A stretch of 64,000 bases of DNA from Apostichopus japonicus (Eukaryota > Echinodermata > Holothuroidea > Aspidochirotida > Stichopodidae), in assembly GCF_037975245.1 (NCBI RefSeq), contig NC_092572.1, forward strand, positions 2,331,501-2,395,500, given 5' to 3'. The position numbers and the translations under genes are program-made. Positions within the stretch are counted from its first letter, which is position 1. Each line of letters starts with the position of its first letter. Below, piece by piece: positions 1 to 59,034 of this stretch. The notes under the pieces were generated by a model. The model was given only the letters and a program-made list of their open reading frames with translations, was not told where the DNA came from and did no database searches.

Positions 1-1360
1 CAATCCTCAACGCCAAGTCCCGGAGACGGCTATCTAGTGACTAACAACACACAGACCGCCACACATCTGGAGAGATGGCGGTTTGGCAAGCCGACGGGCA
101 CACAGGAGCGGCATTGAACATAACACAGAGGGGCCGTTCAGCAGAACATCTGGCCCACCCTCCTCTTTGATTCTACGAAGTGAGTCACCAATCTGAGGAT
201 ACACCCTCGAAGGGCGTGTTGCCTTTGGCCGGTTATTGGAAAAGGATCCGGGCCAGTGGTGGCGATAAAGAAACCCACCCCAGTACCTAACAAAAAAAGG
301 CAAAGGGAATCGAAGGATTTCAAAACGCAACGAAAACATTTTTCAAAAGGAGAAAGCGCAGTTTAGATGGTAGGTGGACCAAACCAAGCCCACCGCTCAA
401 GGGGAATGTGACCTTTGATAAAGGCTTGAAGGAGGCGAGGTCCGACACAATACAAGTGACGTCATCAGCACAGTGCACGCTTGTAACTCTAGCCCCACCC
501 AGTACATTGAAGGGTCGAAAACCCAAGCGTCTGTCCAGCGAGGTACTTAGCGTTTCCCTAAAGAGAACATACAACAACGGGGAGAGGGGACAACCCTGAC
601 GGGATGGACTCTCCTTCGAACCTGGAAGGGACCAGAAATTAATCCATTAACAGTGACCATGCTTGTGACGTCCTTATATAGTAACGAGACCCAACGAACA
701 AACACTGAGTTCAATCTGAAGGACTCTACTGTAGGTTCTGAACAGAAAGTCACGACCAACCAAGTCAAAGGCCTTCTCCTGGTCCAAGGAGACTAGTGCA
801 CATGGCAAATCACGAACTTTAACAAACTCGATCAAGTCTCTCATTATCCAGAGGTTATGTTGAATACACTTGCCTTGCGCAGCACAAGTCTGGAGAGGAC
901 CTACAATATCCGGCATCACATCCGCTAAGCGATTTCCTAATGCTTTGGCCAGGATTTTGTAGCCCACATTTAACAGCGTTATTGGACGCCTATAAGGGTC
1001 CAAATGGTCTCCCGACTTTGGGGGGGGGGGGAGAACAATTTATTCAACCCGCTGTGTTTGGCTCATGTTATTTAACTGGAAAGAGGTAGCGAACACGTCT
1101 CTTAAGTCCCCACCGAGAAACTCCCAGGCGGTCTAAGAGAACTCAGCAGGGTGGCCATCGGGACCTAGGGACTTTCCCTTCTTCATCGCTGCTACCGCTA
1201 TCCAGAGCTCACCAACGGAGAGATTCGAACCCAAGCTATCGTTTTTTACTCTGAGGTCTTCCTGGAGATCCTCGCTAACAGCAGCCCTGGAGTACAGGTT
1301 TGAAAAGAACGACCTAAATACCTCGGATGACTAGTGACCTGACTTAGAGTGTTTGGTCGC
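1..1360 (-). pseudogene. Decayed LINE reverse transcriptase (L1/Tx1-like)
   Basis: The minus strand reads as a non-LTR reverse transcriptase in several broken frames. In order from high to low coordinate: an FRSFFSNLYS segment near 1300, the GKSLGPDGHPAEFS finger motif near 1160, RRPITLLNVGYKILAKALGNR near 990, the DQEKAFDLVGRDFL motif-A region near 790, a WVSLLY...VNG block near 650, and an ADD catalytic box (HCADDVTCIV) near 470. In-frame stops occur just after the GPDG block and before the RPITLLN block, and the reading frame shifts around the G run at 1020-1031 and again after motif A. The order and wording of the motifs fit the L1/Tx1 clade. The window edge cuts the element, so its 3' end is not seen. 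It is a dead copy; no endonuclease domain is visible upstream. Confidence 0.85.
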
Positions 1361-9629: not shown

Positions 9630-9654
9630 CAGTAATTAAAATAAATCAACCGAA

Positions 9655-11340
9655 ATGGCAGAAAGCATACGAACATCCTGTACGCGTTGCCTGAAGAAAT
9701 ATCCAAGATACCTTCTTTCAATGCAAACGTCGTGTGATCATTTGCTTTGTAGTAAGTGTTCTACAGAAATACTTCACATTAGTTTCAGTTGCCCTAAATG
9801 CCGCCCACTAATTACATTACCAGGGCCTGCAACGGATGGAACCCATCAACCCCTTTGCTTAGATCACAACAGCAATGCAGAATTTTATTGCTATTCGTGT
9901 CAGGCATTCGTTTGTTCAAAGTGCCTTCTAAAGACTCACAAGATACCAGATCATGAGGTAGCAGTGTTAGATGATGATACTACAAGAAAGGTCAAAGCAA
10001 ACCTTTTAGAAACATTAAATCAATTCCAAAGAGAAATCGCAGACATTGCTCAAAGTATTGCACATGCAAAACGTGTTTGCAAAGAAGACAAGGAAAGGCT
10101 TGCGGAAACTATATCAACAAATCAGAAGCAAGCAGCTGCTATCATTCAGTGTTTAAATGAAAATCTCTTAGATGAGCTTCAAAGAAAGTTTCAAGAGACA
10201 TCAGATATATTCACGCTAATTGATCGTCAGTGTAAAAAGGCTGAAGAGGAAACTTCCAATACACTCGAAAGTATCAAGGCTGACAAAAGTGCAGATCTGG
10301 CACAAATCAAATGTAAATTTGAGGATATTAAAGCCAAATGTCACCAATTAAAACAGGTGAAGATTCCGAGTAATCTGAATTTGAAATTTGAAGATGAACT
10401 GCAGGCAATAGCTTTTGGCAACCTTGTACCATCCAGAGCAGATAACGAAGATTCTTCAGGCTATACCCGATTGATGACTCCATTACCAAAATGGATCTTG
10501 AAAGATACAACCGACATAAAGGGTTGTGAACTTGACTTCGCTAACATGATTTGTATCAATGAAGACTGGATTGTCCATCTAAGTAATCTTTACGGTTCAC
10601 TATGCATCTCAGTCAAGCACTTCAGTATTAAACAAGCATCTGAATTTCGACAACCTTTCATACTACCAATGCCAAGTTACAACTGGACTGTCGCTCGAAC
10701 GGCCGGACATGATCGTAGTATACTAATCGCATCCTGCCGTACAGTCACACTCATAAGTTTCCGTAGAGAAGATATGGAAGTTAAACACACTCTCGAAGTT
10801 TCGATTGATGTCGAAGCCATCTCATGGGACGAATACGGTATTGATTGCTACCTGCTAGCAAAGAATCTGCGAGATATTCACTGGTTATCGAGAAATGGGG
10901 AATTGAAGTTCCTTTGTACATTAGGCACTGCTCTGGACTCACCCGGTAGCATGCAAGTCTACAACCAAACGACGCTGGCGTTTCTAGACATATCTTCTCG
11001 AGAGGTTTATAGTCGTGACTTCATCACTAATGTTAAAGGAACCAAAACCCTATTAAAACAACCTCTTCCCAGAGAATGGAAACTGAAGACAGATACTTTT
11101 GTTCCTCGAGCTGTAGTTTGCATGCCAAGTCCAGGCTATCATCTCGTTCTCTTCCATGGCGGAGATTGCGTGGCTGTAGGCCAATATGATGAGAACTTTA
11201 GGTTTTTGGGCTGGATAGTTACTGTGAAATCTCCATCTGAAGAAGATTTCATGGATATTGCGGTACAAGGAGACAAAATATTTCTTCTCTTTGAAACTAA
11301 GCTACTGGTATACGGAAAGCAGCAAAGTACAAGGAAGTAA
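9655..11340 (+). CDS. TRIM protein (RING, B-box 2, coiled coil), TRIM56/TRIM2-like
   Basis: A single uninterrupted 561-codon coding exon. The RING finger has all eight zinc ligands: C9, C12, C27, H29, C32, C35, C46, C49. The B-box type 2 follows with C68, H71, C79, C82, C87, C90, H95, H100. Residues about 105-260 are charged and heptad-like, a coiled coil for dimerisation. Residues about 290-555 contain repeated hydrophobic beta-strand blocks, probably a divergent NHL-like beta-propeller, but no clear NHL motif can be read. TRIM proteins are RING-type E3 ubiquitin ligases, many acting in innate immunity or RNA regulation; the substrate is unknown. The start has a good Kozak context (G at -3, G at +4) and lies just after a splice acceptor at 9629. 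A poly(A) signal lies at 11929-11934. Intact and probably functional. Confidence 0.92.
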   Translation: MAESIRTSCTRCLKKYPRYLLSMQTSCDHLLCSKCSTEILHISFSCPKCRPLITLPGPATDGTHQPLCLDHNSNAEFYCYSCQAFVCSKCLLKTHKIPDHEVAVLDDDTTRKVKANLLETLNQFQREIADIAQSIAHAKRVCKEDKERLAETISTNQKQAAAIIQCLNENLLDELQRKFQETSDIFTLIDRQCKKAEEETSNTLESIKADKSADLAQIKCKFEDIKAKCHQLKQVKIPSNLNLKFEDELQAIAFGNLVPSRADNEDSSGYTRLMTPLPKWILKDTTDIKGCELDFANMICINEDWIVHLSNLYGSLCISVKHFSIKQASEFRQPFILPMPSYNWTVARTAGHDRSILIASCRTVTLISFRREDMEVKHTLEVSIDVEAISWDEYGIDCYLLAKNLRDIHWLSRNGELKFLCTLGTALDSPGSMQVYNQTTLAFLDISSREVYSRDFITNVKGTKTLLKQPLPREWKLKTDTFVPRAVVCMPSPGYHLVLFHGGDCVAVGQYDENFRFLGWIVTVKSPSEEDFMDIAVQGDKIFLLFETKLLVYGKQQSTRK

Positions 11341-14436: not shown

Positions 14437-17400
14437 ATGAAGCACAACTTCTTATTCCAAAATTTCTTTCTCTCTTACCTTTTGATAATGGTTTCTTTGA
14501 CAAGCCTACTGCGTGTAACGGGTAAGTTAATTTATTTATGATATGGCTGCACGTTTCCTTTGTCTTTCTTTTCAATTTTAGATTTAGAGCTAAATGCCGT
14601 TTGAAACAAACACAGAAGGACAACAAACAGCTTTAGAAAACCCGTTTGCTTCCGAGCCTTTCCTGAAATATAAAACTTGAAGAGAACCTCTGCGACATAT
14701 TTCTTTCCTTTATTATATTATATTATATTATAGTATTGTATTATAGAGTTCATAAAGTTTTTCTATAAACTGTTCTTTTTATTGTAGCGAAGTGTCAACA
14801 TTTCATAATAGATCATATCAATTAAACTTATATTTGGTTTCATAATTGCAAGTACAAATTATGAAAATCACGATCATTTCTTTCAATAAACCTAGACTTG
14901 ATGTATCGTATGTATATCTGTTTTGGAATACTGATAGATTGAAGTTTGACGTAGAACTTTACAAAGTCTTAAATAATGACTAGACATACTGAGCCCATAC
15001 TGCTTACGTTGAGGTTTTATTTCACATGGTTGTATAGATGATATGTTCTGAGTGTTTGTCAAAAAGAAATGTCAATTTTAGACGTCAAAGATATACTCAT
15101 CCGATAGATTAGGTTTATATTTATTCCAAAGCGAAAGATTTTGCTAATAGCTACTTTTCATTTCTGTATAGATGTAGTCGAAAAGTTTAGAACTCCCATC
15201 ATCTCCAGGATTCATACTTGTTGCTCTCACGGTAGACCTGCCACTCTATTTAGCTTGAAGCATGACTTTAGACAGGTGATGAAATGAGAAATTAGAAGGA
15301 TAATTATTTCCATTATTTCTTGGATGCTATTCGAGCACTCTTTTCCACTGTCTTCGTTTTTAAATTCGTCTTTCCCCCATTTCCACTGATTTCAACAGAG
15401 ATTTCAGTAACTACTGTTAATCTTTAAAAAAAGAAATACTACAGTAAAAATTAGATCGTGCTGATAAATATGATATAAATCGGTAGCATGTGCTATAAGG
15501 ATTACAGTAAGAACTGAGAATATCTATAATACCAACAACTGCATCAAGCTGGATTTGTTGGGATTGCACGTGTCCTCATTTTTTACTGTAACCATAATAG
15601 CACATTCTACTGATTTAAGCGCAATCAAGCCAGTTTTTACTCTGGTGCAAATATTTAAAATTTACAGTAGTAACCGTGTTCTCTGTCTGTATCGGGTGTC
15701 GTTTCTTTCTTTTTCACTCCAGCAGTATCGGGAGATCTTAGTGCCTCTCTTGGCGCTACCATCCAGATGCGTTGCACTTGGCGTGATACTCAAAAACCAT
15801 TGATGATAATTTGGCGGCACAATGGTACAGTCATATTAAGTCAATCCATTTCTCGCCTACAAGAAGAGACAGACAGATATCTAGCGACACTGCACGAGAA
15901 CTCGTCCGTTGCCTCTCTTTACATTCATGGTGTAAAGTCTGAGGATAAAGGAGGGTATTCTTGTCATCCCGTAAATTCAGAGTCGGAAAAAGATATCTGC
16001 AATGTTCTGGTGATAGGTACGTTGTATGATACCTGTATATTATAACTTCTATAGCTGATCTCAATAGTAGATAAGCGTATATAAAGCGCTTGAATGGAAC
16101 TCATGTTGTTAAAAATTTTAAATTTCAGATGTATGCATATTGATATTTTATGGCTGCAGTTAGGATTTCCGGGTAACGGAATAGTTACAATATTAGTTCA
16201 TTGTAATATCGATTTTCGTCCACAGAATATCCCCGCGGGAATCCTGATTTTAGCGATACAGACGACCTTGCTACACAGGATGAGTTTGAACCAAAAAGTA
16301 CATCTAGCACACATGTACTTATCAATCAAACGGAGGACTGCGCTGTAGTTGCAAACGTCAATGTATCATTTTTCACCAAATCGTCAGACTTTCCAGGTTA
16401 GTATGAATTATCATATATAATAAAAATACTCGAGTTGTAAAGCTTCGTGGAATTAAGTGATGGCGTTTCAGGGGGACTTCATTTCATATTTTTTTTTCAA
16501 TCTTAAAGAACATATTCAAGTTTTACACACAGTCAAAAGCATTCTATCCTATATAAGGAACACCAATGTGAAAGTCATTTCGAATATAGCACTTCAAACA
16601 GTTAATATTATTTATATACTGAAGTACACACTTGTGAACGAAATATTTAGTTTATACAGAATGATACTTAACTTGAGCTATCTGAAGCATCGATTAACTG
16701 AAACTGAGAAGTAAGAAACTGTCAAGTGTTTACATTTTGTGTATGACGTTAGCTTTGTAGACGATAAATTCATTAGTTCATTCAACGAGTGGTATTCGAC
16801 GAGTTTATACTTTTTAAAGCATTTGAATGAAAGAATTGCAATAGCTCCTGGAGCACATTTTCATTTCTGGTACTGTTATTATTGCAGTGAAAACGACGCA
16901 AGTAACTCCGAAAATGGTCACAGGTAGTCTCGGTTCACATGGATCAACTTCCACACTAAGCCCTAACTCAACCAGTGTACATTGGATCTTTATCGTGATC
17001 ATTCTGTGCATTCTCGCAATCGTGGTTGTTGCTATGATTATAGCAGTCGCACGAAAAATACGTAAGTTTCCAGACAATCTTTAGGGACGGAAAACTGATC
17101 GTATCTCCTTATATCTCTTGAATAAGAGGTTATAATCTCAAGATTTGCAACGTGAACCGCGAAATAACAGCAAATTAGATTTGTTAACACTCCCAAACAA
17201 AGCATTGGGCGACAATGCGAACTCCATTGACACCAAGGTTTTACTTCATCTTCAGTGATATAGTTATGCAAGTCCTCATTTACGTAATGATAATTAATAT
17301 TCCATGGTGATTTAAGGACTTTCATATAAAGAAGTGTATTAAACCATTTTAAGCTTATCATAACATTTCCCATAAATATTCCTGAGTGTTATTGTGTATT

Positions 17401-20400
17401 ATTTAATGTTTCGTCTCAGAGATATGGGTTCCTTCACAATGACCTAATATAAGGCTTTTACATATATGCATGTTCATTGCATGAAAGGTTTAGAAAAAAA
17501 ATGTAGAAACACTCAATTTATTGGTCTGGTGTCATTTAACATCACAAATTTCATTTTCAGTCCTATGTGGATTAAAGTTACTTAAAAGATTAAGCCATAT
17601 AAAGTAATGCTATGTGAGCTTTATCAAATCTCGATAATATTATAACAGGAAAGTACAATACAGAGAAAACAATACACATATGCTGTAAAATATCACATGA
17701 TCCAACTAGTTTGTGTTCATATCCTCAACACAAATGTTTTGATATCCATATGGTGCCATAGTAGTTGGGTAGTATTGGGAAATTAGCTATTAAAAAATAA
17801 CTTAGTAACAATTTCAATCTATCATTTCATCTTAACAGTAGTTTGAGATTATAAGATGTTTAAAAAGAATGGTCTCTTTCATGATGATAGGTAGGAATTA
17901 AGGGTTGATTTTTTGCTATTTGTTCTGTGCAATTATTGTTTATTACCAAACCGGAAAATTGTCCTGACTTAATGACTCATCATTTCATTTTATTTATTTC
18001 AACTGAGCAAATTCGGCATGTTATACAATGAACGAGATATCCCGCATAGTGTGCAAATTTCTACAAACGTCCTTGCTGTATACTCTTCAAACTTACTTAC
18101 GTTCTTACAATTATTTGGGAAATGTTTACTTGATATAGTAATAAACATATATCAGAAAATGATGGTCAAAAGTAACAAGAGATGTTTATCTTTATTTGTG
18201 TTATCGTAGTTATCCATCCCAAATTAGCATAATCATCATGTAAACGCCCATGTCGCAAGACTGACTGCTTCCCACCATAAACATTGGTCATACGTCAGCC
18301 AATCAAAGCAAAGTGAGTTATACTAATTCTGTAGAAAAAACAACGCGGAAATATCATCAGATTATTTTCAATGGTAAATTATTCACAAATTAGACCCTTT
18401 TAAGTTATATTTGAAAACAGGTGTATAGAATTAAGAAGTAATATAATAGAATGTCCTAGGATTACCGCCTTACATAATTTATGTTACACTACTTTCAGAC
18501 TGAAATCACAGCACACATCTATGGTTATGCGAAATGAAGTTATAAATGATGGGGAGAGTGGAAAATGAACACATCAGTTTCGTGAAAGAAAGAAATATGA
18601 AATTGTCCTTTTTAAGACATGTGAAACTGAAAACAATTGAGCAGAAGAGAAATCCTTAGTTTAAATTGCTTTCGTAGACCTGCTGACGTTGTTAAGCATT
18701 ACAATAAGTAATAACTTTATCTTTCACTTTTCCTTTGACAGGCTCTCCTGCGCAGTCACAGTCCTCAAATTTAATCACAATGTCGTAAGAATAAACAGTT
18801 TTCATTCCATTCATGTCCAGTTTTCAATAAGTTAAATCACACAATGGTATGAATAGACGGGACAAAATAGAAATTATTAATAACTTACAAAGGCAAATCA
18901 CAAAAGGAAGGAAAAAGTTATCACATTTGTAATGCACACTCTTCTCTGTTGGTACTTGATGCCTCTAACTTGTCGGGACAATATCAAAACTGTTGTTGGT
19001 GCGTTTCATGGAAATGCGTAAAAGGACACACATATCGTGGCATGAACCTTTTTGAACAGGCTATAGATGGATAAAAAATACATGAATAAGGTTTTGGTTG
19101 AAAGTTCGTTGAATGTGACTCCCATCTACGAATCCTATGTACGTGTGTTTGTGAGTGTTGGTTGGGGCCTTTCCCGAAAAACGAAACAAAGCTAGAGAAT
19201 AAATGGCGTATTCTAATGCAGATTAGACTATAATACAGGACTAAAAAACATCTAAACTCACGCTTTGCTAAAAAATAGTTTTGGATTCTGCAATAAAATC
19301 TTTCGGGCTTTTGCGCACGGAACTAAAAACATCAGCAAATTGCATCTTCGCGTTCGACTAAAACGCTGGTGGAACTCATTGCAATTTATATAACAAAAAC
19401 AAGTTTCTTTGGAAATCAAACAAATACAAACGCTTCATTATGGCACCCTTAGGAATACATGGCTCTGCTGATCATTTAGCCAAATGCACAAACAAATACC
19501 TATTTTCTTTTGTAATTTTGAAGAAACCGTTCGTTGCCCTCTGTCCCGGTCAAACTCATTCGTTCATCAACTTCGCGTTACTCTGGTGACCAAGGTAATG
19601 GCATTTTAAGAAGTTTAAGAAGTTTTGTATAACTTGATTCCCTTTTACTGAGAACCATATCAGAACAAACTACATTTTGTTATGTTACTATGTGCAGTAC
19701 CGTAACGTAAAGCAGTTCTCTCAAAATACTTCAACTATGATTAAAATCCTTTATCAATATCCAAGTTGAGAATCATCATCAGTTTTTTAAGCATTGTTAA
19801 ACTAGATTAGTCGCACTGATCTTGATAATTATGTCATGGTCATTTATGATACTTTAAATAAAGAGATAGAGGAGATACCTAATGTGCTTCAACGACTTAT
19901 ATAAACACACAGTTAAGAAAGCTTTGAAAATCCTCATTAGTTCAAGCAATAATTTTTACTTACTTAATTGGTTTCTTCACAAGCATATGTGAGGTTCTTA
20001 AATTCATATAGAGTTGTTTGTACCTTGCAGGTATTTACAATGCTATCCGAGAAAATGTCAAAAAGAATCACAAGACAACTATATTGGAGATAGCGCTTGA
20101 AGACATAACCTTCGATGTGCAAATCGGGAAAGGAGAAAAAGTTCAGTCTTGGCGAGGAACCTTCACTCACCCTAAGAATGGAGTAGTCACTGCAATGATC
20201 TCGTCAGCAAGTGGTAGCCTATATATTTCATATATTTTGTGTGTTTTGTGTTTATTCTGCTAGACTAACCTATCGAATACTGTATATCATAGTTTCCAAT
20301 GTCCGACATACAATGACATTTTAACATACAACCATACCAAAGGTGAGTTATTTCATTATATTTCAACTGCCACATATTGCTTAACATAGGTCGCGTAACT

Positions 20401-23400
20401 GACTATGCAATCAAAGAGAAACACTGTTGAAAAGATGATCAATTAGTTCACTTTACAGTAAGAAAACACAATCTAGAACTTTAGCGATATTTAAAACCTA
20501 TTGACATAAACATTTATATGGTTAATATAATTCTTATTTGTTAGTTACAACACCAATCTCACATTGGTATATGTTTAATTTCCAATGGAATGGATATGCC
20601 GTCGTCTTCAGTTTTTTGATGAGTTACATTACATTGCCTACATTACAATGTGTTACATTGAGTTACATTACCCTGCATACAGATTCGTCTAGTTTGATAG
20701 GGCACAAATGATGCAAAATGTTGCAAAAATATTGCAAAACTTAAATGCCACCACGCATAGTATTTCTATCATAAATTGGTAAATTTTGAATAACTTTTAT
20801 ATGCTCCTTTGAACTAAATAAACCTTCTAGGACAGAGGGAGGTTGCCCTAAGCAACAATCTATGTTTATCCAATCTCAATATTCCAGATACTAACGAGCT
20901 TCGTCTTTACACCGAGTGGTTCCGTTACGTCAGCAATATCGTTACGATACCTGCAGAGAGCGACAACATTGTGTTGATATACGGATTGTGCCTGGATATA
21001 GGTACGTCTAGAAGGAACGTTTTGATTGGTTTAACGTGGTAAAAGCTGTTTTATGTATTCATAATAAATCATTTTATACATTTACATTTGTTACGATGAG
21101 GTGTGATGAGAAAAGTACTTTACAATACATTTTCATTTCGCGTTTGGATTGGTGTAACAAATAAAACATTTATATTATCAAAGAGGAAGTAAAACCACGG
21201 GAACAAGTCAGCATAGCAGGAGAGTACATGAAGCTGTTGTTGGTTTGTGTCAACATACACTCGTTTAGAAAATTGATTGAAGACGAGACACTTCAGTAAA
21301 AGCATGAGACCGAATCGGGGGGGGAGGGGGTGGGTGGGTGAGGAGGGGGCTAACAACTCATTGTAACCTCGGAACAGAGTAAGAATAAAGTCTGTTAATC
21401 ACTCATATTCAGTACTTCCATTATACCTTTACACCCTTAATTATCTCATCATAAGTTTGCTCCATCCATTAAAAAGAGTTATAAGTTGTCGATACATGGT
21501 GATACGATTGTATGAACTAATTACGTCACATGGTACGACCAATATGAAACAACAATTCAAATTTTTCTTCTCCTTCTCTTTACCTTGAAAAGACAACATT
21601 TTTCTGGTCAAAGAATACTTGAGCTGTGGATCCCTGGCTGATCATCTTAATGCTGATCGCTCAATGAACATGAAATATACCGACTTGATGAAGGAGTCTA
21701 GGAGGTCAAAGTTCATTTCATTTACGATGGATATCATTCGTGGCATGAACTTTCTTAATTCTAACGGGGTGCGTTTTTTGTTGTGTGTTTTTTTTTTGTC
21801 GTTGAAGTATACAAACATAAATCTGGAATCAGTGTTGTAGGACTACAGCTAAATTGAACAATGGTATGAATAATCTGTCACTTATTCACACTTATATGGC
21901 GATAACACAGGACGGTACTAATTACAAATATATTAAATATATTACACTGTTGTTATTTCTCTTTTTTCAACACTGTTGTTCTATTGCGTTTATGTTGAGC
22001 TCATTTGGTTTACCATTGATGCATGTTAAGTGGTTGATGTGCTTCCTCTCAGTGATGTAAACATTACCATAGCACATCACATCAATAAATTATTTTAAGA
22101 ATTGGACACATGAAAAGTGCTGACCAGTACTCTATTTTACAATCGTAAACATCTGCTGCTATTTTAAGGTTTGTTTAACTTACCTTTCCTTCACCAACGT
22201 TTGAATCACCTTGCCATCATGCCTCTTATCATACTTTTTTTTTTTCAGTGGGCTCATCCGGGGCTGTGTTCTTCAAAAATATTATTAAGTGCCGACCAGA
22301 CGTGCAAGCTTTACGATTTTTGTACATTTGATGATGTGAAAACAAAAGTTTCGGCAATAATTGAAAAGGTTTGTACGTTTGAAGTTCTTTACTTTATAAA
22401 CTATAATGTTCAACAATTAAAAAAAAAACTAAAAGCTAAAAACGTAACACCGTAAGTTGTTTATTTGCCGAGAGAGTTGTAGACAAATCGCGCTGGTGTT
22501 GTGTTTGCAGTTTCTGACCCATTCAGGTATAGGTTTCGCATTTCACCGATACTGATTATTTATCATGATTACCAGTAAATGTTAACGCTAAAGGAAGATC
22601 TATATTGAGTAATAATTCTGATAAGCAATATTTAATAACCTTTCATATGAAATCAATTCTTATAACAGAGAGTGACAAAACTTGAGTGGATTGTGCCGCC
22701 GGAGACCTTGTGTTACAGAGAATACAACTACTATAGTGATGTATGGACAGTTGGTACAGTCATTTGGGAGATATTCTCAATGGGTGAATATTTTGAGTTA
22801 CATTAGAATAATAATAGTTCATTATATTAACAACTTGAATCAAAGTATAGATCATTCGTTTATAGACTACACGTTAATGTTCGTTTAGTTCCTTTAGTTC
22901 ACTGACGGGGATCTTCCATCTAAGGGAGGCCTACATTAGCGAATGTCGTTATTTAAAATTTGTTCAACGGTGTATCAGGATCTTACATACACAAACTTGA
23001 TTCTTAACATATAAACATAACCTTTTTGTTACAAATCATAACACAGGAATCCCGCCTGATGAGGTACAGCCTACTCTTTTAAACGCTTCTGCTGAGAAAG
23101 TCCCTTCCCGGATGTCATTTATGGGGAATACAAAAGATTTGCCACCAAAGCCTGCGCAGTGCCCGTATGTAGTGTGAGTATGACAGAATCGTTTTCGGGA
23201 AAGTGTTAACACTTTCACGACACTGAACAAGTTAACATGTGAAAGTTGAATTTGTCAAAAGGTGTTGAAAGGGTGGAGGATGGGTGGGGAATAGGGAAAC
23301 TTGTATATTAGGACATACAATCCGTAGGATAGATGACTTATTGAGAAATCATAGGTTTTCGGACATCTTTTAAGTTGATCTTTACTGTTAAGATTGATTT

Positions 23401-24291
23401 AATTTGATTTTCAAACAGATATAAGGCGATCACCCTTTGTTGGTCACGCGATCCTTTGACTCGTCCTTCCTTTCGAGATTTGACGGAATATCTGGAGAGC
23501 GCTCTATCAGTTCACAACCTAACCACACGTGTTGAAAAGGTAAGGGTTAGTTTACAAGCAAATAGCATACATGTGTAGTCGAGCAATGATCTTTATCAAA
23601 ACAGACAAACTAAAGAGACTGAATTCTTACTTATTCAAGTTTTTAATCATGTGAAGAACAGAATTAAATTCTGATTTTCTTTCCTCATAATATAAAATTA
23701 CATGTGTACAAGGATAATTTAAATGAACGTTAACTATCTCAACTTGGTGCAACAACTATTAACTGTGACAATACTAACGTTTTATCAAGACATAGGAAAT
23801 AACAACAGGCTCAACAAATGTTAATTCCATTATTGTAGATATTGTCACGTAATCATGTCCTGATTTTCCAACATTGTTATGTGGATATTACCAGTCATAT
23901 GTGATACGATTCATCTTTCTTCAGAATGGAGGGTAAACCGTCCATGCATAGAGATATTCATGGAAAAAAAGTCGACTTTCTTTCGTGATTACAACATACT
24001 AACAATTTGGATGAATCTAGAATAACAGAAGCATTTATTCATTTGTTATATTTTCATCGGGCCGAAGTCAATGCTATCAATCTTGATACTTGTAACATAA
24101 TATCACTTCTTATTAATATATTGGCCTACATTGATTTGATTTATCTCTTTTAACCCGGTTTAAATAATTTTCCACAGAAAACAGAAGAAAAATACCTATC
24201 TCCAGACGATCCGGTGTTAATTGACTGTTTGAGGAAAACCGATACAAAGTCTTCTGACGACTGTGCCTTCACAACCATGACAACTGTTTAA
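14437..24291 (+). CDS. Single-Ig receptor tyrosine pseudokinase, 12 coding exons
   Basis: Exons: 14437-14521, 15723-16016, 16226-16396, 16888-17061, 20031-20210 (or 20213), 20888-21001, 21593-21768, 22249-22368, 22669-22783, 23047-23173, 23419-23539, 24178-24291. All junctions are GT-AG and keep frame, giving about 596 aa. Order: signal peptide (about 1-28), Ig domain (C46, W59, DKGGYSC with C109), Ser/Thr-rich stalk, membrane segment (about 216-238), kinase-like domain (about 260-570), short tail. Kinase landmarks are clear: IGKGEKVQSWRG loop, NIVLIYG, LVKEYLSCGSL hinge, GMNFL, PPETL for APE, SDVWTVGTVIWEIFSMG, CW..DP..RPSF. Catalytic residues are lost: the VAIK-type Lys is missing (VVTAMI), HRDLAARN has become HPGLCSSK (401-408), and DFG has become DFC (421-423). 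It should therefore bind and scaffold rather than phosphorylate. Closest by style to FGFR/VEGFR/Tie-like kinases; exact family unsure. Confidence 0.87.
15720..15725 (+). promoter_or_regulatory. NAGNAG tandem splice acceptor before the Ig exon
   Basis: CAGCAG at the start of the receptor's Ig exon. Using the first or second AG adds or drops one codon (Ala-Val versus Val) without changing frame. Confidence 0.55.
18742..18788 (+). other. Possible alternative last exon of the receptor gene
   Basis: After an excellent acceptor (CACTTTTCCTTTGACAG) the sequence reads in the phase required by the membrane exon (17061): RSPAQSQSSNLITMS, then TAA at 18786-18788, with AATAAA at 18790-18795. Use of this exon would give a membrane-anchored Ig protein with no kinase-like domain. 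The poly(A) signal is unusually close to the stop, so it may be chance. Confidence 0.3.
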
Positions 24292-25490: not shown

Positions 25491-26110
25491 TGAGTCAACC
25501 GTTTAGTTACCCAAAAGAAGACATTCTTCAGCCCATTACTTTGCGCGTTAATCTTTGTGGTACACTGTTGACGAGATTAAACATGTAAGTGTCTTCGTCT
25601 ATCTATTTCTACAACAGAGGAAGTTTTCGTCAACACATTAGTGTGTGAGTTAATCTATCGAATTACACAAAAAAACCTAGTATGTCAACCTGTTAGTGTG
25701 TGCATTAACCTTTTTGTGTTACGATGAAATACATCAACCCCGTCAGCAACCTGTTTGCGTCAATCTGGTTGTGTACCACTGAATGCAGTTTTCAACCCAT
25801 TAGTTTGTTCATCCATCCACTTCTACAACAGACGAGGCTATCATAAACCAATTAATGTGTGGATTAACCAGCGTTTTGTTACACTGATGAAAAACATAAA
25901 CCCATAAAGTGTGTGCGTAAATTCATTTGCACTACAGACAACTTTTGCGCAAACCTTTCTGTGAAACAATATAAACATTTTGCTTAAACAACAGAAAGGG
26001 CTTTCATCAACCCATTAGAATGTGCTTCAACCCATTTGTGTTACACTATAAAAAAAAGTATGTAAACCCATTAGTATGTGAGTCCATCTGTTAGTCTTGT
26101 AAGCGAACTT
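25491..26110. repeat. Degenerate tandem repeat (CAACCCATTAGTGTGTG motif)
   Basis: The motif CAACCCATTAGTGTGTG followed by TTTTGTGTTACAC and CTACAACAGACGAGGCT recurs at irregular spacing with heavy divergence. The same family reappears at 29860-30120 (same orientation) and 33780-34420 (mostly inverted), so it brackets the transposon cluster. Confidence 0.6.
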
Positions 26111-26970
26111 GCGCAGTATTTAACCTTTGATATTCGTAACGATATTTGAATTGTGTTAGGCATGTAATAATGTTGCATTTTTTCCCGGGAAGTCCGCGTT
26201 ATCCTCGTTAGTTGTTCACTATGACGTAAGCAATCGCGCACCTAGCCTTTGCTCGAAGGGTTGAGCTTTCCGGTCTCCGGAAGTCTGGTGACCGTAACTA
26301 AAAGCCGGAATTCTTTGAAGTAATATATTCTCCCGCGCGTAAAGTTAGGCCAATGTTCAAGCCAGTACAAAAGAAGCTGATGGTAACGTACAACTGTGTT
26401 ACATTCCTTGACAAAATTTCATACAAGTTGAGATACAAGTCTACGTACGGTACGTTATCTTATCCTTTCTATCAACCAATTGGTATGTTTTTAAGACCAC
26501 TGCGTGCATGTCCAACTGTCCGTAATTGGTATCGTAATTGCTCAGAATATTATTTAATACTTTAACCGAACTTGCGTATTATTTTAACTTTTGAAAGCTA
26601 TTCTTTACGCTATATTAATTGTTTAAGATTGTAATAATGTTGCAATTCTTTGCCGGGAAATCCCCGTTATCCTCCGTAGTTGTTTACTATCGTGCACCTG
26701 GCCTTCTGGTCTCCGGAAGACTGGTGACCGCAACTCAGAGGCGGTATTCTTTGAAGTAGTACATTCTCGTGCGTAAACTTAAGCCAGTGTTCAGGCTAGT
26801 AAAAAGGGAGCCGATGGGAACGTGCAGCGTGACACGCTTTGACAAAAACTCATACACACGAGATAAACAAGAATTACTATTAACCAAGTTGGTATGTTTC
26901 TTATACCACCGCAAGGTGTCTAACTGTTCGTAGATATTGCAAGTGCTCAGAATATTATTTAATACATTAT
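26102..26970. repeat. Tandem duplication of about 400-470 bp
   Basis: Copy 1 (about 26102-26568) and copy 2 (about 26572-26970) share CGGTCTCCGGAAG, TCTGGTGACCG, TTCTTTGAAGTA and GCTCAGAATATTATTTAATAC in the same order. Copy 2 has several deletions. No coding potential is seen in either. Confidence 0.8.
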
Positions 26971-27221
26971 TGAGTTGTATGAATTGTTAGCAAATTGCGC
27001 TATTGAACTAGGGATCTCTAGTTTACTCCCAGTTATTTAGGAGTAACGTACGTTATTGACCGATTGTTATCGTTTACGTCATTTAGTAGCGCTCTGAATT
27101 GCGTGACACTGTATATACTTTAGTAAGGATCAGTGTTCTGCTGCGGATGTATAACATTCAGTTAGTCCGTAATCAGGTGCGTATCCAGGGGGGGGCGTTG
27201 GGGGCGCGCGCCCCCCGGGTA

Positions 27222-27390
27222 AGAAAAAGAGGAGAGAAAAAAAAGAGAAGAAAAAAGGAAAAAAGAAGGGAAAAAAGAGGAGGAGGAGAGGAAGGAAGGG
27301 AAAAGAAAAAGAAGAAAGAGAGAAAAAGGAGAAAAGGAGGGAGTAAAAGAAAAACGCGAAGACACCGGGAAGAGAAAGAGGAACAGTGAC
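27222..27390 (+). repeat. Polypurine (GA-rich) tract
   Basis: About 165 bases of almost pure A/G on the plus strand inside copy A. The lysine/arginine-rich and serine/phenylalanine-rich ORFs read through it are artefacts. A shorter counterpart lies at 47932-48040 in copy B. Confidence 0.9.
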
Positions 27391-28305
27391 ATCATTACAG
27401 CGCTGAAGGGTAGCCAGTGACGGATCAATGATTTCGTAAAAGTGTGACTCACCCTACCCCTTACACCGACAACTCCATTTTTTGACGTTTCCATTTTCCC
27501 ATCTCACTAATGATCTATATATATACTATATATGGTCTATCATAACGCGTGTGTAGAATTGTGCTATGAAACCAACTGTGGCTGGTCTCGAACTCGACCG
27601 TGTCGTCGGGGAACATGACGCATTTTGGGATGGGGGCGACCGCCCGCCCCCCCCCCCATTCAGCATTTTTTTAAATGATATCGCTAAGTAGTTTCAAAAT
27701 AGAAAGTGCTTAGAGGCAACTTACAAGGCCTGGGAAGTGTCATTTCCAGCGATCTGGGAGACATTTTCGGCCAAAATTTGCTTGTATCGCTTCGCGCTAA
27801 CAAATGGTCCTGGCGGGTAGTGCCATTTCCAGCGATCTGGGAGGCATTTTCGGCCAAAATTTTCTTGTACGCTTCGCGCCAACCTATGGTGGCGCTACGC
27901 TTAGATAATTTGCCTACAGGCTTCGCCCCTCCCTTGGCAAATTCCTCGCTACGCGCCTGTTCGAGTTTGTAACGCAAACAGCAGATATCACATCATATCA
28001 GTGAGCATGAAAATGGCGTTCCAGGATGAAAAGCCTCAAAACTGTCCGACTTGCCTGAAAAAATAACTTAATATTTTCGCGCGCGTTCAACGTGTTCATG
28101 TCAATATCATATAAGCAAGCATCGGTTTTTACATCGCATGCCATCATGTACCGTACGGTCCGTTAAAATTGTGCAGTATACTGCGGGATGCTAATGTAAA
28201 CAACGACAGGTCTCATGTAAATGTATAAAAAGCACGGAGGTCCAATTATGTCAAAACTCTCTTTTACATTAGTAATGGCGAATTAGGGGCTGCACCCCCG
28301 CCGCG

Positions 28306-28674
28306 CAGTGGCGGAGCGTCAGGGGGGGGCGGATGCCCCCCTGACGGACTCAAATGGACTGTTGGCGCCTTTTTCAGCTCTTTACCACTTTTTACTTATT
28401 CTAGATTATTGACTTTTTATTGCGCTCTCATCTACTTATTGACATTTGTCACATTTTATTGGTGTAATTTGGCGATGACAACTTATTCTTCGTTTATCTG
28501 TAAATTAGCCAGGCCCGGAAAGGGTCATTTCCGGCGATCTAGGGAGTATCTTCACTCAAAAATTTTCTGTACGCTACGCGCCAACCGGTGGTGGCGCTCC
28601 GCTTAGATAGTGTCTAAAGCGCCCCTACAGACCATTCTCGCCACTCCTGACCAACACCCCTAGCTCCGCCACTG
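28306..28674. mobile_element. Nested hAT-type MITE with 8-bp target duplication
   Basis: Starts CAGTGGCGGAGC and ends GCTCCGCCACTG (perfect 12-bp TIRs). The 8-bp target duplication CCGCCGCG is perfect at 28298-28305 and 28675-28682. TIR sequence and 8-bp duplication together fit hAT. The 369-bp element has no coding sequence and contains the GGTGGCGCTCCGCTTAGATAG module. The corresponding place in copy B (about 49010-49040) lacks it, so it inserted after the two copies parted. Confidence 0.9.
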
Positions 28675-29376
28675 CCGCCGCGCCTCCTACGCCTATGTGT
28701 GTAGCGTTCGGTTTCGGAAATATCTGCTATTTTTTTCATTTCCCTCAACCAAGTTTTATAATAGCCGTTATAAGAGGTTTTAATATTTGTACACCAATAA
28801 ATTAACCGTGTCTGAATTTTCGAACATTTCTGACCAACATTCTGCATCACACTTCCCTCTACTCGTGCAATTTTGACCGGTCTGTTAGGGGTTGAAGGAA
28901 GTTTTTCTATATTGGTTGTCCATAGATGAAATTTAACATTGAACATTATGGGTATGTTTTGAAGTGAGTTTATTCTCGAGAAATGTGAATTTTCAAATTC
29001 TGAACAAATATGGGGCTTAAAACCTTGAAAAGTGGGTCTGACGGGTATTGTGGGCCGCGACGTAGAATCACCTACAAAAGCAAAGACCCACAGGAGATGC
29101 GATCAGGTCGAACATGATGTGTGCCGGGTTGACAATCTTCAAAAAGGTTATGGATGGAAAAAACTAAAAGGAAATACTTGGTTCTCAGGCAAAAAGTGTA
29201 CATCTGGTTGGTCATTTCAAGCCCGAGAAGTGCCGTTTCCGGTGATCTGGGGGGGGGGGGGGGGTTTCAAAACAAGAAATTTTCTTGTACGCTGCGCGCC
29301 AACCGATGGTGGCGCTCCGCTTAGATAGGTATTCGCGCCCCCCGGGTTGGAAAATCCTGGATACGCGCCTGGTAAT

Positions 29377-29859
29377 TCGCAACTTAGTGAAGCCTAGGTC
29401 AGCTACCACATAGATAAACTACTACCATTTAATCCATTTATTGTTTCCTAGTCTATTAAAATCCGCTAACGTTGACATCGTAAAGATAACTCTGTTGCCT
29501 TAGATCTGATTTCATATTTCTACGCTGAGTGTAGCGCCGCGTTGGGGGCTGCGTTTTACGTTGTGTGTAGAGTTCCACGCTGGACGCTGTGTTTAGCGCG
29601 GCGCGTTGTACGCCGTACATTGGAAGCACAATATTTCATGACCCTTGTATTTTAAATGAGGTGTGACTAAACGGTACCACTGTGCCACGAGAACTTGAAT
29701 ATATTTTCCATTGCCATATTTTATCGCGACTCTCTTTCGCCAACACCAGCTATAAAGATTGCCGCGACTGATAGGGAAGTACAGTTACAGTATAACATTC
29801 AAGAATGAAGAACAATTATTATGTGCAAAATTCTTTTTGTTCAAAAGAAAAGGCTTGCG
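29377..29859. other. Intergenic with a GC-rich degenerate patch
   Basis: At about 29520-29630 GTGTAGCGC/GCGTTG-like words repeat imperfectly. No gene seen. Confidence 0.35.
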
Positions 29860-30126
29860 TTAACCTGAAGAAAATTATCGAGTCATTTATGTGTGCGTCC
29901 ATCTACTTTTAAAGCATACGAGGATTGCATAAACTCATTAATGTGAGGGTCCACCCATTAGTGTGAGCGTTAGCCATTTTCTGTTAAGATGATGAAGTAC
30001 GTACGTCAACCAATTAGCATGTGCGTCAACCTTTTTGTGTATCACTGAAAGGAATTTTCCACCCATTAATGTGTGTTTGTCCATCTACTTGTACAACAGA
30101 CGAGGCTGTTGCAAACCCCAAAACGC
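29860..30126. repeat. Second block of the CAACCCATTAGTGTGTG repeat family
   Basis: Same motifs and orientation as 25491-26110, including a nearly identical CTTGTACAACAGACGAGGCT. The 659-bp inverted-repeat element sits directly after it. Confidence 0.55.
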
Positions 30127-30785
30127 ACTGGTTTGGGTATTTACAAACGAGGATACTTACCTGTCTCCTACAACACTAACGCACATTTCCTAGTCTACTT
30201 ACACACCACTGGTATATATTTTAGCACTGCGCCCCGGTGACCTCTCCCTCAGGTCACCATGCACTCTCTCAGCCTTCCGGATTTACCCAATACTGATGCG
30301 GCCAAGATACCGCAGCGGGGAGGTATGAGTCGGATTGGAGACCCAAACTGAGAGGGAGTGTTAAAATCCACGTCGAAGTGCCCGTAGCCTGCCCGAGGGA
30401 TGAACAGTAATGTAAATCGAATTGAAAACAACGAGGAACAAGGCACTACCCTGGTGAAGGTTTGGTTGAGAGCGTAGATGGCGTGGTTCTTTCGGTGTTC
30501 GAACTGAATGGATATGTCCTGGTGGATATGTCCGGATGAGTATGTCCGGGCGGATGTGTCCGGATAAAGTGTCCGGTATATCCCGGCCTATCCGGCTGTG
30601 AGGATAAATACTATTGCCAATCTATGGGAGGATAAGATAAGTGGATCATACCCACAATCTAACAGTATCCATTGAACAGTATATTGACTTGTTGCTGGCG
30701 TTGTGTGGGGCTCGCGAGTCCTGTACGTCAGGTGGGAGGCGGGTGGGACAGGTAAGTATCGTCGTTCGTAAATACCCAAACCAGT
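30127..30785. mobile_element. 659-bp element with 38-bp terminal inverted repeats
   Basis: Arm 30127-30164 (ACTGGTTTGGGTATTTAC...TTACCTGT) and arm 30748-30785 are reverse complements with two mismatches out of 38. The interior holds a short tandem repeat of GTCCGG (about 30510-30590) and no convincing gene. No clean target duplication is visible. It may be an independent MITE, or a terminal/internal complementary region of the adjoining DIRS-like element; both are inference. Confidence 0.7.
30510..30595. repeat. Short GTCCGG minisatellite
   Basis: ATATGTCC(T/G)GG, GTATGTCCGGG, GTGTCCGGATAA, GTGTCCGG repeats at about 14-18 bp spacing inside the inverted-repeat element. Confidence 0.7.
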
Positions 30786-30829
30786 TTTTGTGGTACTAAC
30801 TTCACTCCTGTCTTACCTGTATTCTACAA

Positions 30830-33350
30830 CACTAACACAGAGTGGCACTGGTGGGAGGCCTAACGGGCTTGACCTGCCCGTAGGAAAGCCAAACACTGCG
30901 CGAATGTAGACTTTTAAGCCGGTTTGGTGAGACTGTACTCAGAATTCCAAGGGCAGAAGGTCCCACGTCGCCGCACAAAGCGATCGAGACTTCGTTCCTC
31001 TGTCTGTTGACGAATGCCACTATCGTCGTAATGTCGTGGTGACGGCATGGCCCGTAGGTGATACTCGAAGTAGTGGATGGCTCTGGATAGTACCTCCATC
31101 TCTAGCGCGTTGATATGGACAACCTCGCCCGCGACTCTTACGAAGACCCGCATTGAGGTCGAGAGGCCGGAGTGTAGCGACACGAACTTGTAGTTCCTTC
31201 CTTTGTAGGAGTATGCTAGGAATCGTTGTAACGCGACTTGGACGTACGCGTCTTGTGAGGTCGACGGATGATGCCCACATGCCCTTCGTGAGGTTCGAGA
31301 TGATTATCGCGAGAGTCTCCATGTGAAACCGAGTCGGAAGAAGCCCTTATTCAACGGATTTAGGTTGAGTATTGATCGCCATGACCCGTCCTTTTTTTTT
31401 GGGGGGGGGGGGGGGGGAACGGAGGAAGGACAAACGGAAGAGTAGTCTCTCCCCTTCCGTCGCCTCCACTATAGCCCTCTTTGTCAGTGACGCATGGAGC
31501 GCGTATCTCTGGCACAGGTCGGTGGGTACTGGGTGTCCTTTCCGCCTCCCCCCACCGGAGAAATCCGAAAGAACTCGATGGGGTATCCTCTCGAGATCAC
31601 CCGGGTCTATCTCTTTCCATACGTTCTGGAATAACTGGAGCCTCTCCCTACCGCCGGGTACGCTGTAACCGAGGAAGGGTAGGCACCCCTCGGGCCTGGG
31701 GCCTGAAAGACAACCTTGGTGGCTGGTAGTTCTGACGTGGTCGTGATCTTTCGTTTCGCGAGAGTCGGCCGTACCGATGTCCACGTGGGAGGGTCTTGGC
31801 GACCTGTCGGATCTTCAACCCCTGTAAATCTTGGCGGTGATACCGCTGTTTCGTTTCCAGCAAGCGGGCCGTTGCGCCCTACCCCTCGGTGTTTTCGCTT
31901 GTTCTGGGCGTCGGTAAGGGCGCGATTGCCTATCGGCCTTGCGAGCGTCCGGGCGGGAGAAACCAGATTTTTGCTAGCGTGTTGCGTCGGTCCAGTTCCT
32001 GTCGGACTGTATCGCTTAACTGGTCATTGAATAGGTCCTCTCCCAGAATGGGGAGGGGTGCCAGTCTCTCTTTTGCTTTCCCCGCTGGCCAGCCTACTGC
32101 CGCCAGCAAGTGCTTCGGCGGGATTCCATCGACCGGATTGCGATTCTCGCAAACTGGTGATAGACAAGTCAGGCTAACGGGCCAAGAAGCCACAGTATTT
32201 GTGCGACCTCGTGGTATCTGGTCCGGGTCTTCTGGCAGCTGTTGGTGGTGTCGCACGAGGACTTCCGCTGCTAGAGGTAAGGTCGACGCAAACTTCATTC
32301 CCCACTCGGGATGATTGATCAAGCTCAAATAGTGTGTTATCCAAGCGCTTACGATGTGGATCTTCAAAGATAACACTTGTCAAGCCGTGTTCCGCCTGGA
32401 GACAGTCCGTCGCGTCCCTAGGGATCAGTGGAGGGCGGAAAAGACTCTTCCAAGTATCCTCGGGCATTCGGAGTGCCCTGTCCTGCTTTTCAGGGAGAGC
32501 CGTTCACCTCCGTTGTTTCTGAATCACCTCCACCCGTTCAAACAGAGTGGGTCCACAGGGATGAAGGTGGAATCGTCCTCTGGCGTTTCGTTTGTCGATC
32601 GCAGTTTGGAAGATGACATTGGGGATTAGGTCCCCGCTGGGGAGTCCTTGCGATAGAACCGATGTGAGCTGTGAGAGCAGCAACGCACAATCGGAAGAGA
32701 GAGGTCCCGTAGGCGGAGGCGGTGCCTCCGTTAACATACGGCGTTTGTGTTCCGCCGAAGATTCATCGGGGATCGGTGAAGGACAGCGCACCGGCGAGCG
32801 GCTACGTGCCCCGGTTCCTTTAGAACTGACGCAGACCTGCGTGTCTGTTCCTGAGCAGACCCAAGATTCCGCTCATAAGAGGCAGAGGGAACTTTAGAGG
32901 CTTCAGCAGTGGGAACGGCCCTACTCTTTGAAACCTAACTGGTTTTCGGTGCCTTCCCTTTGGCTCTGTTATAGGTCTTGGACTTGACCTTAGCCTTAGG
33001 GTTCGAACTATTCCCCGTTCTCGGGGCTGTCTCCGGGTCGGTTGTCCGCGGAGTTCGCGGCGTGTAATCTGCAGGTTTGGTTTGGACCGTGGACTGCGGA
33101 GCAAGCTGGGTGGAAGGTGGTCCAGTTGAAGCTTTAACAGTTGACGTTTTGCTTCCAGCTAGGCTTCCGTTTCCTTCAAATTAGCCTGTGTGAAAGTGAC
33201 ACAGGTGGAACACGGTTCCCGTCGAGTGCAAGATCTACACTGCGGGCAAAGTGCGTGCTCGTCCCAAGCGCGCCCGAGCGAAAGAGCAAGCAGGTCGCAC
33301 ACTTAATCGTAACTTTCCCGTCCTAAGACATCCTGATTCCTAAAGGAGGA
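30830..33350 (-). pseudogene. Degenerate DIRS-like retroelement
   Basis: GC-richer than its surroundings. On the minus strand: a cysteine cluster DEHALCPQCRSCTRREPCSTC near 33230 like DIRS gag zinc knuckles; a Pro/Lys/Arg-rich linker (about 33120-32800) with one in-frame stop; then a reverse transcriptase region with GRERLQLFQNVWKEI (about 31620), SPPPPPKKKG (about 31400), METLAIIISNLTKGMWASSVDL (about 31290) followed in another frame by KDAYVQV, and SLHSGLSTSMRVFVRV (about 31170). The LKDAY and GLSTSMRVF blocks correspond to the DIRS RT motifs (usually GLSTAPRVF). Several frameshifts and a long poly-G tract at 31392-31408 break it. No tyrosine recombinase or RNase H is recognisable. The plus-strand ORFs here are shadows. 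Confidence 0.75.
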
Positions 33351-33779
33351 GGATAAGTCGGGAGAAGAAAAACAACACTGAAAAACCGCGAAAAACACGC
33401 GGCTCTAAAAGAATAAGGCCTACACAGTTCTTGAGTGAACAAAACTAGTAGAAGCTTGTTGTGGCCTAATCTCTACAGGAGGAGCTCCCGGGGGGCCAAA
33501 AAGCCCATAAAAACTTCCAATAGAGCCCCAAGAATTATACGAACACGGGAGAGTGAGACCTAAATAAGTATTAATCTGAATTTTTTATAGAACAAAACAA
33601 GGTCTTCACGGTACAACACGTAAGTGAAATGTGCTGCGACTCGCACAAATGATACACGTGTGAGGTACCGTAATACAAAAACGAGGCGATATCCTAATGT
33701 CAAGAAGAAGCAGAAAACTGCTTCAAACAAAAGGATACTTAGCAGAAACTTGATGAATCCTGTTGCAAACTCTGACGGG
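33351..33779. other. Flank of the DIRS-like element
   Basis: No feature recognised; may contain its terminal repeat, which cannot be confirmed without a second copy. Confidence 0.35.
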
Positions 33780-34420
33780 TTAACGCACATCCTCGTCGTA
33801 ACATAGAAAGATTGACGCACACACTAATGGGTTGACACGTTTGTTCTTTTGTGTAGGTCAAATGGGTTGACCCGTTAATAGGTTGAAATATACATCGTCT
33901 ATTGTAAAAATAACTAGACGCGCGCACTTATGTGGTTACGTTCTTCATCAGTGTAATACAAAATAGTAAACGGTCTCACTAATGGGTTGACGCTAGCCTA
34001 TTCTGTTGTACAAGTAGAAGGACTCTAACATTTTGGTTGGTAAACTTCTTCAGTCATACTCAAAAAGGTTTACGCAAGCCTAAAATGATGGGGTGACGTA
34101 CTTTTTTCTTAGTGTTACACAAATGGGCTGATCCACACACTATATGACGCAAGATTCATCTGTTGTTAAAGAATACCTCACTTCTATTAACAAACAGATG
34201 AAAGGCTTTCGTCAACCCTTTAGTGTGTGGTTCAGTTCATTCGCGTTACACGAAAGAATAAGTACGTCACTCCTTTAGAGTTTGCGTTCATCCATTACCA
34301 TCATATTGTAGAACTTCGAACCATTCATGTGCGTCAATATATTTTATCAGCATCTGAGGGTTACGTCAACCTTGTGTATCACCTTGTGTAAGATTGTCGA
34401 CCCATTATGGCGCATTAACA
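33780..34420. repeat. Third block of the CAACCCATTAGTGTGTG family, largely inverted
   Basis: CACACTAATGGGTTGACAC, CACTAATGGGTTGACGC and related words run in the reverse orientation to 25.5-26.1 kb, then a forward GTCAACCCTTTAGTGTGTGG near 34212. Divergent, non-coding. Confidence 0.55.
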
Positions 34421-58828: not shown

Positions 58829-59034
58829 AAAATTGTGATGATTAAGTGATTTCTTTCATACTTATCAAAGGAGAGATCTTTTGAAACATATTTTCAAATT
58901 TAAATTCAGATTAAATGTTTAAAGCACCTTTAATACTGTTTCTTGAAAGCTCTTCTTTTGTTTCCAGTGAAAGTGCACGAGTTGAACCTTGAACTATATA
59001 ATCACAACGAATGTCTGCAATGCATTTCTTTCAC

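Follow-up and report, generated by a model that had tools for sequence, protein, structure and literature searches.

The 64,000-nucleotide stretch of the sea cucumber Apostichopus japonicus genome analyzed here (C12:2331501-2395500, hereafter the window) carries on its plus strand, at 14437-24291, a gene predicted to encode a receptor tyrosine pseudokinase with one immunoglobulin (Ig) domain. Judged from its sequence, this gene is one member of a sea cucumber family, here called the HPG family, that numbers at least 150 loci and has a common dead catalytic site in the members sampled. The best reading, which we consider probable, is that the family comprises lineage-expanded Ig-type receptor pseudokinases that signal without catalysis. 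The former active site appears to have been rebuilt and not merely eroded, in that the magnesium-binding Asn has become Lys and the DFG Gly has become Cys or Trp, with the DFG Asp retained.

We rebuilt the gene model from the sequence and obtained 14 exons encoding 635 amino acids, with the stop codon ending at 24291. All 13 introns are GT-AG and the exons stay in frame throughout; assuming equal codon use, an accidental open frame across 636 codons would have a probability of about 5e-14. The coordinates, strand and exon chain given by the initial annotation proved right; its count of 12 exons was wrong. A segment at 20293-20342 was considered as an extra exon and dropped, because skipping it restores a consistent frame and an unbroken alpha-C. 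The kinase-like domain (residues 306-583) matched Pfam PK_Tyr_Ser-Thr (PF07714) with an E-value of 3.6e-38. Within exon 7 (20031-20213), which by model and alignment encodes the juxtamembrane Tyr282 (GIYNAI) and the N-lobe, the Gly loop is degenerate (GKGEKVQSW, with the third Gly gone), and Ser337 (20201-20203) occupies the beta3 Lys column in alignment A2 of family kinase domains. The dead catalytic exon, exon 10 (22249-22368; WAHPGLCSSKILLSADQTCKLYDFC), placed by the model and the family alignment, reads HPGLCSSK for HRDxxxxN and DFC for DFG: Gly (22261-22263) stands for the catalytic Asp, Lys (22276-22278) for the Asn and Cys (22321-22323) for the DFG Gly. All the losses claimed earlier, of the beta3 Lys, the HRD Asp and Asn, and the DFG Gly, were therefore seen, as was the conservation of the C-lobe, with PPE, SDVW and RPxF retained.

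The genome searched for relatives comprises 671,581,487 bases in 35 contigs. A query with the kinase part of the gene produced 116 matches at E <= 10; many were HPG and DFC exons, and exons of the window itself were among them. The DNA pattern CK.[YF..][DN]F[CW] was found at 159 genome places, as against 22 for a reversed control. With the 40-amino-acid catalytic exon of a relative as the query, at least 150 loci were recovered, each of them an exon match that is not proven to belong to a gene. The best 150 of 249 candidates all scored E <= 8.3e-4, the window's own catalytic exon being among them (E 2.7e-4), and an in-frame stop was present in 1 of these 150 scored exon matches. Seventy of the best 150 lie on C12, 45 on C16 and the others over 13 further contigs; 98 fall in 24 clusters with gaps of at most 100 kb. 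The window gene is isolated, with 328 kb to the nearest other locus among those 150, and its kinase domain is 29-34% identical to those of four relatives.

Subsequently, the catalytic exon was read in 69 loci, namely 49 distinct loci (the window gene, 13 from the kinase-part search and 35 of 40 short loci fetched) and 20 chosen by hand from the best 150. Among L019-L038, 13 were counted; L020, L022, L023, L026, L027 and L033 were left out, so that L020 (CKLYSFC) falls outside the 49-locus set, and L038 repeats the L034 gene. Of the short loci, L041, L047, L053 and L067 were left out as apparent chance matches to the pattern, as was L049, which reads CKVYDFW with no readable HP upstream. Across the 69 loci, the catalytic Asp is kept in one, the metal-binding Asn in two and the DFG Gly in none, and the Asn position is Lys in 66. 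The 49-locus set reads HPG in 36 members, HPA in 6, HPC in 2, and HPD (L031), HPV, HPS, HVA and YPG in one each; its metal-binding Asn site holds Lys in 46, Asn in 2 and Arg in 1, and its DFG site is DFC in 34, DFW in 12, NFC in 2 and DFA in 1. The 20-locus set gave HPG in 14, HPA in 2, HPV in 1, HPI in 1 and SPG in 2, with Lys at the Asn site in all 20 and the Gly position occupied by Cys in 18 and Val in 2. Among 48 distinct proteins, the DFG Asp is present in 46 and Asn in 2, in a search that demanded D or N, and the Asn-to-Lys change is found in 45.

The way in which the loci were selected defines how these counts are to be read. A pattern unable to match Gly in DFG had picked 29 of the 69 loci; of the 40 free of that pattern, namely the window gene and the loci picked by likeness to a dead exon, none has this Gly and all 40 have Lys in place of the Asn. 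The selection pattern left HRD untouched. The reading rule of the 49-locus set allowed HR and would miss HG, and it returned the canonical HRD/DFG exon L089, which served as a control. This rule also demanded the C, K and F of CKLYDF and a D or N before the F, so these columns are not free observations, and the 20-locus set is the fairer sample for them: it has K in 20, Cys in 15, Asp in 19 and Phe in 17, together with the Pro of HP in 20 of 20. The Pro and the Lys, both invariant in this rule-free sample, are thus the most constant new positions.

The exon boundaries are also shared. The catalytic-exon acceptor lies at a common site, two codons before the H, in 47 of 49 loci, and the first in-frame GT occurs exactly 15 codons past DFx in 46 of 49, in a scan that started at 15 codons. 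Exon 10 of the window gene fits the family definition HP[GA]L...K...CK[LI][YF]DF[CW], acceptor and donor spacing included, and the kinase intron phases are 1,1,0,0,1 in the window gene, L080 and L081. The relatives were recognized by Pfam as kinase folds (L080, 2e-23; L081, 1.5e-34). When six N-lobes were read, the beta3 Lys was gone in the window gene, L080, L039 and L034.

We estimated the ratio of nonsynonymous to synonymous divergence (dN/dS) of the dead catalytic exon by a pooled Nei-Gojobori calculation over disjoint pairs, with bootstrap ranges. The ratio was 0.188 (0.10-0.29) for 13 disjoint pairs with a proportion of synonymous differences (pS) of at most 0.4, and 0.187 for 14 pairs with pS <= 0.5; in three near pairs, the kinase exons gave 0.28. 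The dead kinase domain is under purifying selection in close relatives. The recurrence of the dead motif at the same exon position in 69 loci, together with a dN/dS of about 0.19 in close pairs, supports the earlier proposal that selection keeps a dead kinase here and not a pseudogene; that proposal stands mostly at the level of the family. In a tree of 56 exons, seven canonical or other catalytic exons separated from the 49 HPG rows at 100/100. This tree has 39 columns and is unrooted, and it leaves many inner forks and the place of the window gene open; a single loss preceding the expansion would be the simplest reading.

The window gene is predicted to be a type I receptor consisting of a signal peptide, one Ig domain, a stalk, a transmembrane helix and the kinase-like domain. 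Hydropathy revealed a hydrophobic N-terminus and a single transmembrane helix (peak 3.75, residues 217-235), and the kinase fold, the loss of catalytic residues, and the signal peptide, ectodomain and single helix together give the sequence the features of a receptor tyrosine pseudokinase. Exon 1 (14437-14521) provides the start codon and the putative signal peptide (MKHNFLFQNFFLSYLLIMVSLTSLLRVT; hydropathy peak at residues 12-30) and is frame-consistent with a GT donor. Exon 2 (15723-16016), phase 1 at both ends, encodes the Ig domain (Pfam Ig_3 3.5e-8, V-set 3.4e-6, I-set 9.8e-6), so the single-Ig build described previously is right for this gene. The Ser/Thr-rich stalk that had been noted is likewise present, with 30% Ser plus Thr over residues 127-212 compared with 20% in the whole protein; gene model, hydropathy and composition place it in exon 3 (16226-16396) and in exon 4 (16888-17061), which also encodes the transmembrane helix. 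Two juxtamembrane exons with phase-consistent AG/GT sites follow, exon 5 (18742-18784), which is short and the weakest in the chain, and exon 6 (19524-19594). Beyond exon 7, the model and alignments assign alpha-C to beta4 to exon 8 (20888-21001), beta5 to alpha-E with a short kinase insert to exon 9 (21593-21768, phmmer alignment), and VPPE ... SDVW to exon 11 (22669-22783). Exon 12 (23047-23173) encodes the part of the C-lobe following the SDVW helix, exon 13 (23419-23539) encodes CWSRDPLTRPSF by phmmer alignment, and exon 14 (24178-24291), covered by the model and the hydropathy scan, encodes the C-terminal tail with Tyr604 (EEKYLSPDD) and the stop. All of these exons lie on the plus strand.

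Ig-like stretches were also observed upstream in relatives, more than one of them in L080, L081 and L039. C2-set_2 Ig exons exceeded the Pfam cut-off in L080 (1e-4), L081 (1e-6) and L082 (8e-5); a second Ig-like exon of L080 (0.0038) was below it. Moreover, 9 of 33 weak matches to the window ectodomain (E 0.01-8.6) lie 7.1-13.9 kb upstream of a family kinase exon on the same strand, in a comparison with 52 exon places taken as a hand-made subset of three kinase-exon listings. On the strength of the Ig exons in relatives and these weak upstream matches, the combination of Ig ectodomain and dead kinase looks shared. Elsewhere in the window, two further Ig-like open frames lie on the minus strand, at 40116-40484 (I-set 0.0012, below the cut-off) and 58400-58855 (V-set 1e-7).

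The profile search bore out the kinase assignment of the initial annotation, with the Pfam match given above and FGFR1-3 as the nearest solved kinases. Searched with profile A2 of five family kinase domains, these matched at E ~1e-38, beside one EGFR chain holding the domain twice, and the window kinase domain is accordingly predicted to be FGFR-like. FGFRs have an Ig-type ectodomain with three Ig domains and an acid box, and an active HRD/DFG kinase. HRD and DFG are present in FGFR1-3 in our alignments, whereas in the window gene the catalytic sites are gone and one Ig domain is found; the dead motif and the single Ig place it outside the FGFR family. The second phmmer match of the window kinase was chain 7t6f ('Tyrosine-protein kinase'), with two matched stretches, which we take to be a JAK; its aligned catalytic stretch is HGNVCTKN, as opposed to HPGLCSSK in the window gene. 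The JAK-type JH2 pseudokinase is a dead domain that acts on an active one, and it is intracellular and in tandem with that active domain. Searches of NCBIfam gave weak generic kinase matches only, far below the cut-off, and a phage origin was dropped upon finding no match in phages. Left out of the family counts was a kinase at C8:28487592 (L022/L005), which has a long open frame containing HADLAARN and KICTMSASKD and resembles PTK7/CCK4. An odd receptor kinase lies between HPG clusters at C12:21.96 Mb (L027), with HRNLSASH and SGF for HRDLAARN and DFG.

Human receptor tyrosine pseudokinases are listed as eight genes in the available passages of PMC13259870. They resemble the sea cucumber family in being single-pass receptors whose tyrosine-kinase fold has lost catalytic residues, but in Table 2 of that source none of the eight has HP for HR, Lys for the Asn of HRDxxxxN, or DFC/DFW, and HPGxxxxK / DFC of the window gene fits none of the eight family motifs. 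Furthermore, the human genes number eight in all, as against at least 150 sea cucumber loci whose sampled members have a single dead motif (PMC13259870). The 2017 A. japonicus genome paper names five families that are expanded and clustered, one being 'tyrosine-protein kinase receptor', and ties that expansion to the nervous system and the recognition of signals (PMC5638244, available passages). The clustered, expanded receptor kinases are as found here; catalysis loss goes unmentioned in those passages, and the word 'pseudokinase' is absent from the main text available (PMC5638244). That expansion probably includes the dead HPG family, and the active-looking HGD family described below (L083-L086, L110) may also be within its count. 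The 'tyrosine-protein kinase receptor' expansion of A. japonicus should hence not be equated with more kinase activity until dead members are checked. In a single-cell study of the regenerating sea cucumber intestine, a coelomocyte cluster with numerous immune genes has a TIE1-annotated gene among its top genes (PMC11925454, available passages). None of the titles and abstract openings found on the topic, outside the subscription literature, describes pseudokinase receptors in echinoderms.

A genome with at least 150 loci that have, where sampled, a common conserved dead site would constitute a natural experiment on the kinase fold after catalysis loss. It would offer a deep alignment of an active site that no longer catalyzes and reveal the positions that gained new constraint. 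It also points to a set of invertebrate receptors that may signal with no enzyme of their own.

We infer the partner kinase, the ligand, the phosphorylation, the Lys-Asp pairing and the role in the following scheme. The Ig part would bind a ligand, a neighboring cell or another receptor, and binding would lead to receptor clustering. With its kinase fold and C-lobe retained but phosphate transfer not expected, the dead domain could then serve as a docking and allosteric module paired with an active tyrosine kinase, and it may be phosphorylated on the juxtamembrane Tyr282 and the tail Tyr604. The change from Asn to Lys next to the kept DFx Asp suggests that the Lys occupies the place of the metal; pairing with that Asp, it might fix a nucleotide-free or nucleotide-trapped shape. 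The copy number and the Ig ectodomains suggest an immune or self-recognition role. More tentatively, and short of an even chance in our estimate, one dead kinase chassis could underlie a repertoire of at least 150 Ig-type receptors: catalysis would have been lost once, HPGL...K and CKLYDF[C/W] fixed, and tandem expansion would then have produced a system for recognition without catalysis, perhaps of pathogens or of self. Such a repertoire would, to our knowledge, exceed all other described families of receptor tyrosine pseudokinases in size by a wide margin.

The same genome contains another family of receptor tyrosine kinases in tandem arrays, in which four catalytic exons (L083-L086) read HGDLAARN for HRDLAARN with DFG intact. 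Its arrays lie at C17:13.17-13.61 Mb, C18:8.7-14.3 Mb, C19:8.8-9.1 Mb and C21:13.3-13.5 Mb. This HGD family is active-looking by sequence and forms a candidate partner set for the dead receptors. We had considered the array exons on C17, C18, C19 and C21 as active members of the HPG family, and dropped this idea because the four read are HGDLAARN kinases with DFG.

Several observations weigh against signaling through a uniformly dead, Ig-bearing family. The catalytic exon was read in 69 of the at least 150 loci, those unread are not proven dead, and some loci may be pseudogenes or recent copies. The Cys and Phe of CKLYDF are less fixed in the 20-locus set than the pattern-picked loci suggest. 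The beta3 Lys is kept in two of the six N-lobes, L081 and L082, which belong to the DFW branch, and L082 agrees in four of five kinase intron phases, its second junction not having been placed. With 22 pairs at pS <= 0.6, dN/dS of the dead exon rose to 0.344 (0.24-0.44), a set in which saturation is mixed with true divergence. A search of the genome for a close paralogue of the window gene found none, so the selection evidence is at the family level. The positive selection expected of the ectodomains of immune receptors was not detected: their dN/dS was 0.57 in two pairs versus 0.28 for the kinase in three (Fisher p 0.21), the former coming from two of the three near pairs because the L081/L114 ectodomains have no overlap in the fetched stretch. 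Searched against the genome, the window ectodomain had significant matches to its own exons only, and the three Ig-like stretches of L039 scored 0.0003-0.04, below the cut-off, with a fourth seen by eye.

An unlikely alternative is that the dead copies are decoy or dominant-negative receptors, which would bind the ligand of active receptors and block or titrate those receptors without sending a signal of their own. An expanded active-looking family does exist in the same genome, with HGDLAARN ... SDFG/ADFG in L083-L086 and an intact Gly loop and VAIK in L110, and the loss of catalysis is almost complete among the HPG loci read. An intracellular domain would be superfluous in a pure decoy, however, yet the dead exon is strongly constrained in close pairs and its new motif is conserved, and the exons round the catalytic loop appear to be arranged differently in the HGD family. 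The constraint on the dead site thus argues against a bare decoy, as it does against decay. Rather more doubtful is a retained capacity for nucleotide binding or unusual catalysis that relies on the Lys at its new position and the retained DFx Asp. Accessible ATP sites are described for some human receptor pseudokinases (PMC13259870, available passages), and here the Asp and the Lys are nearly constant (46 and 45 of 48 distinct proteins; 19 and 20 of the 20-locus set), with the beta3 Lys kept in the two DFW-branch members and HPD in L031. Against this, 68 of 69 loci have no catalytic base and 67 of 69 no metal-binding Asn, the Gly loop is degenerate, and the beta3 Lys is gone in four of six N-lobes.

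Decay of the window gene itself, as a duplicate heading to a pseudogene, would accord with its isolation, its divergence and the failure to find a close copy. We regard it as very improbable, given that all 14 exons, the splice sites, the frame, the signal peptide and the transmembrane helix are intact and that HPGL, K and CKLYDFC are retained despite divergence to about 30% identity. To a prediction artefact, with a hidden alternative exon restoring HRD and DFG, we attach next to no credence. Such an exon, which would have contradicted the initial annotation, was sought in the window sequence and not found: neither strand of 21593-22783 has an HRD/HGD/DFG-type reading, three canonical catalytic-exon queries match the HPG exon only within that interval, and in the rest of the window they gave short chance-level matches (best E 0.73). 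The hidden HRD exon was dropped on these grounds; the same exon, moreover, has neither HRD nor DFG in any of the 69 family loci read. The reading of non-catalytic Ig-type receptors therefore remains the one we prefer.

Other features were recorded in passing. Many dispersed kinase pieces matching profile positions 122-180 and 9-85 occur on C4, C9, C14, C19 and C20; the one read (L087) has HRDLAARN ... SDFG and is a multi-copy kinase of unassigned kind. In the window, a single open frame at 9643-11337 (+) is TRIM-like, with zf-B_box at 3.4e-8 and a weak RING match (0.0017) below the cut-off. A G+C island spans 26000-34000, at 0.43-0.53 per 2-kb step versus about 0.35 around it, and contains overlapping long minus-strand open frames, six of which have no Pfam match. 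The Rfam scan of the whole window gave no match at gathering score. Near-identical tandem open frames (MLSFLIVVGINNRPFFEGQTYSSIA...) at 55695-56075 (-) and 57474-57842 (-) have no Pfam match at E <= 0.01. Two pieces probably derive from mobile elements, a reverse transcriptase piece at 674-1039 (-) (RVT_1, 6.8e-10) and a weak GIY-YIG piece at 41957-42382 (+) (0.0024, below the cut-off).

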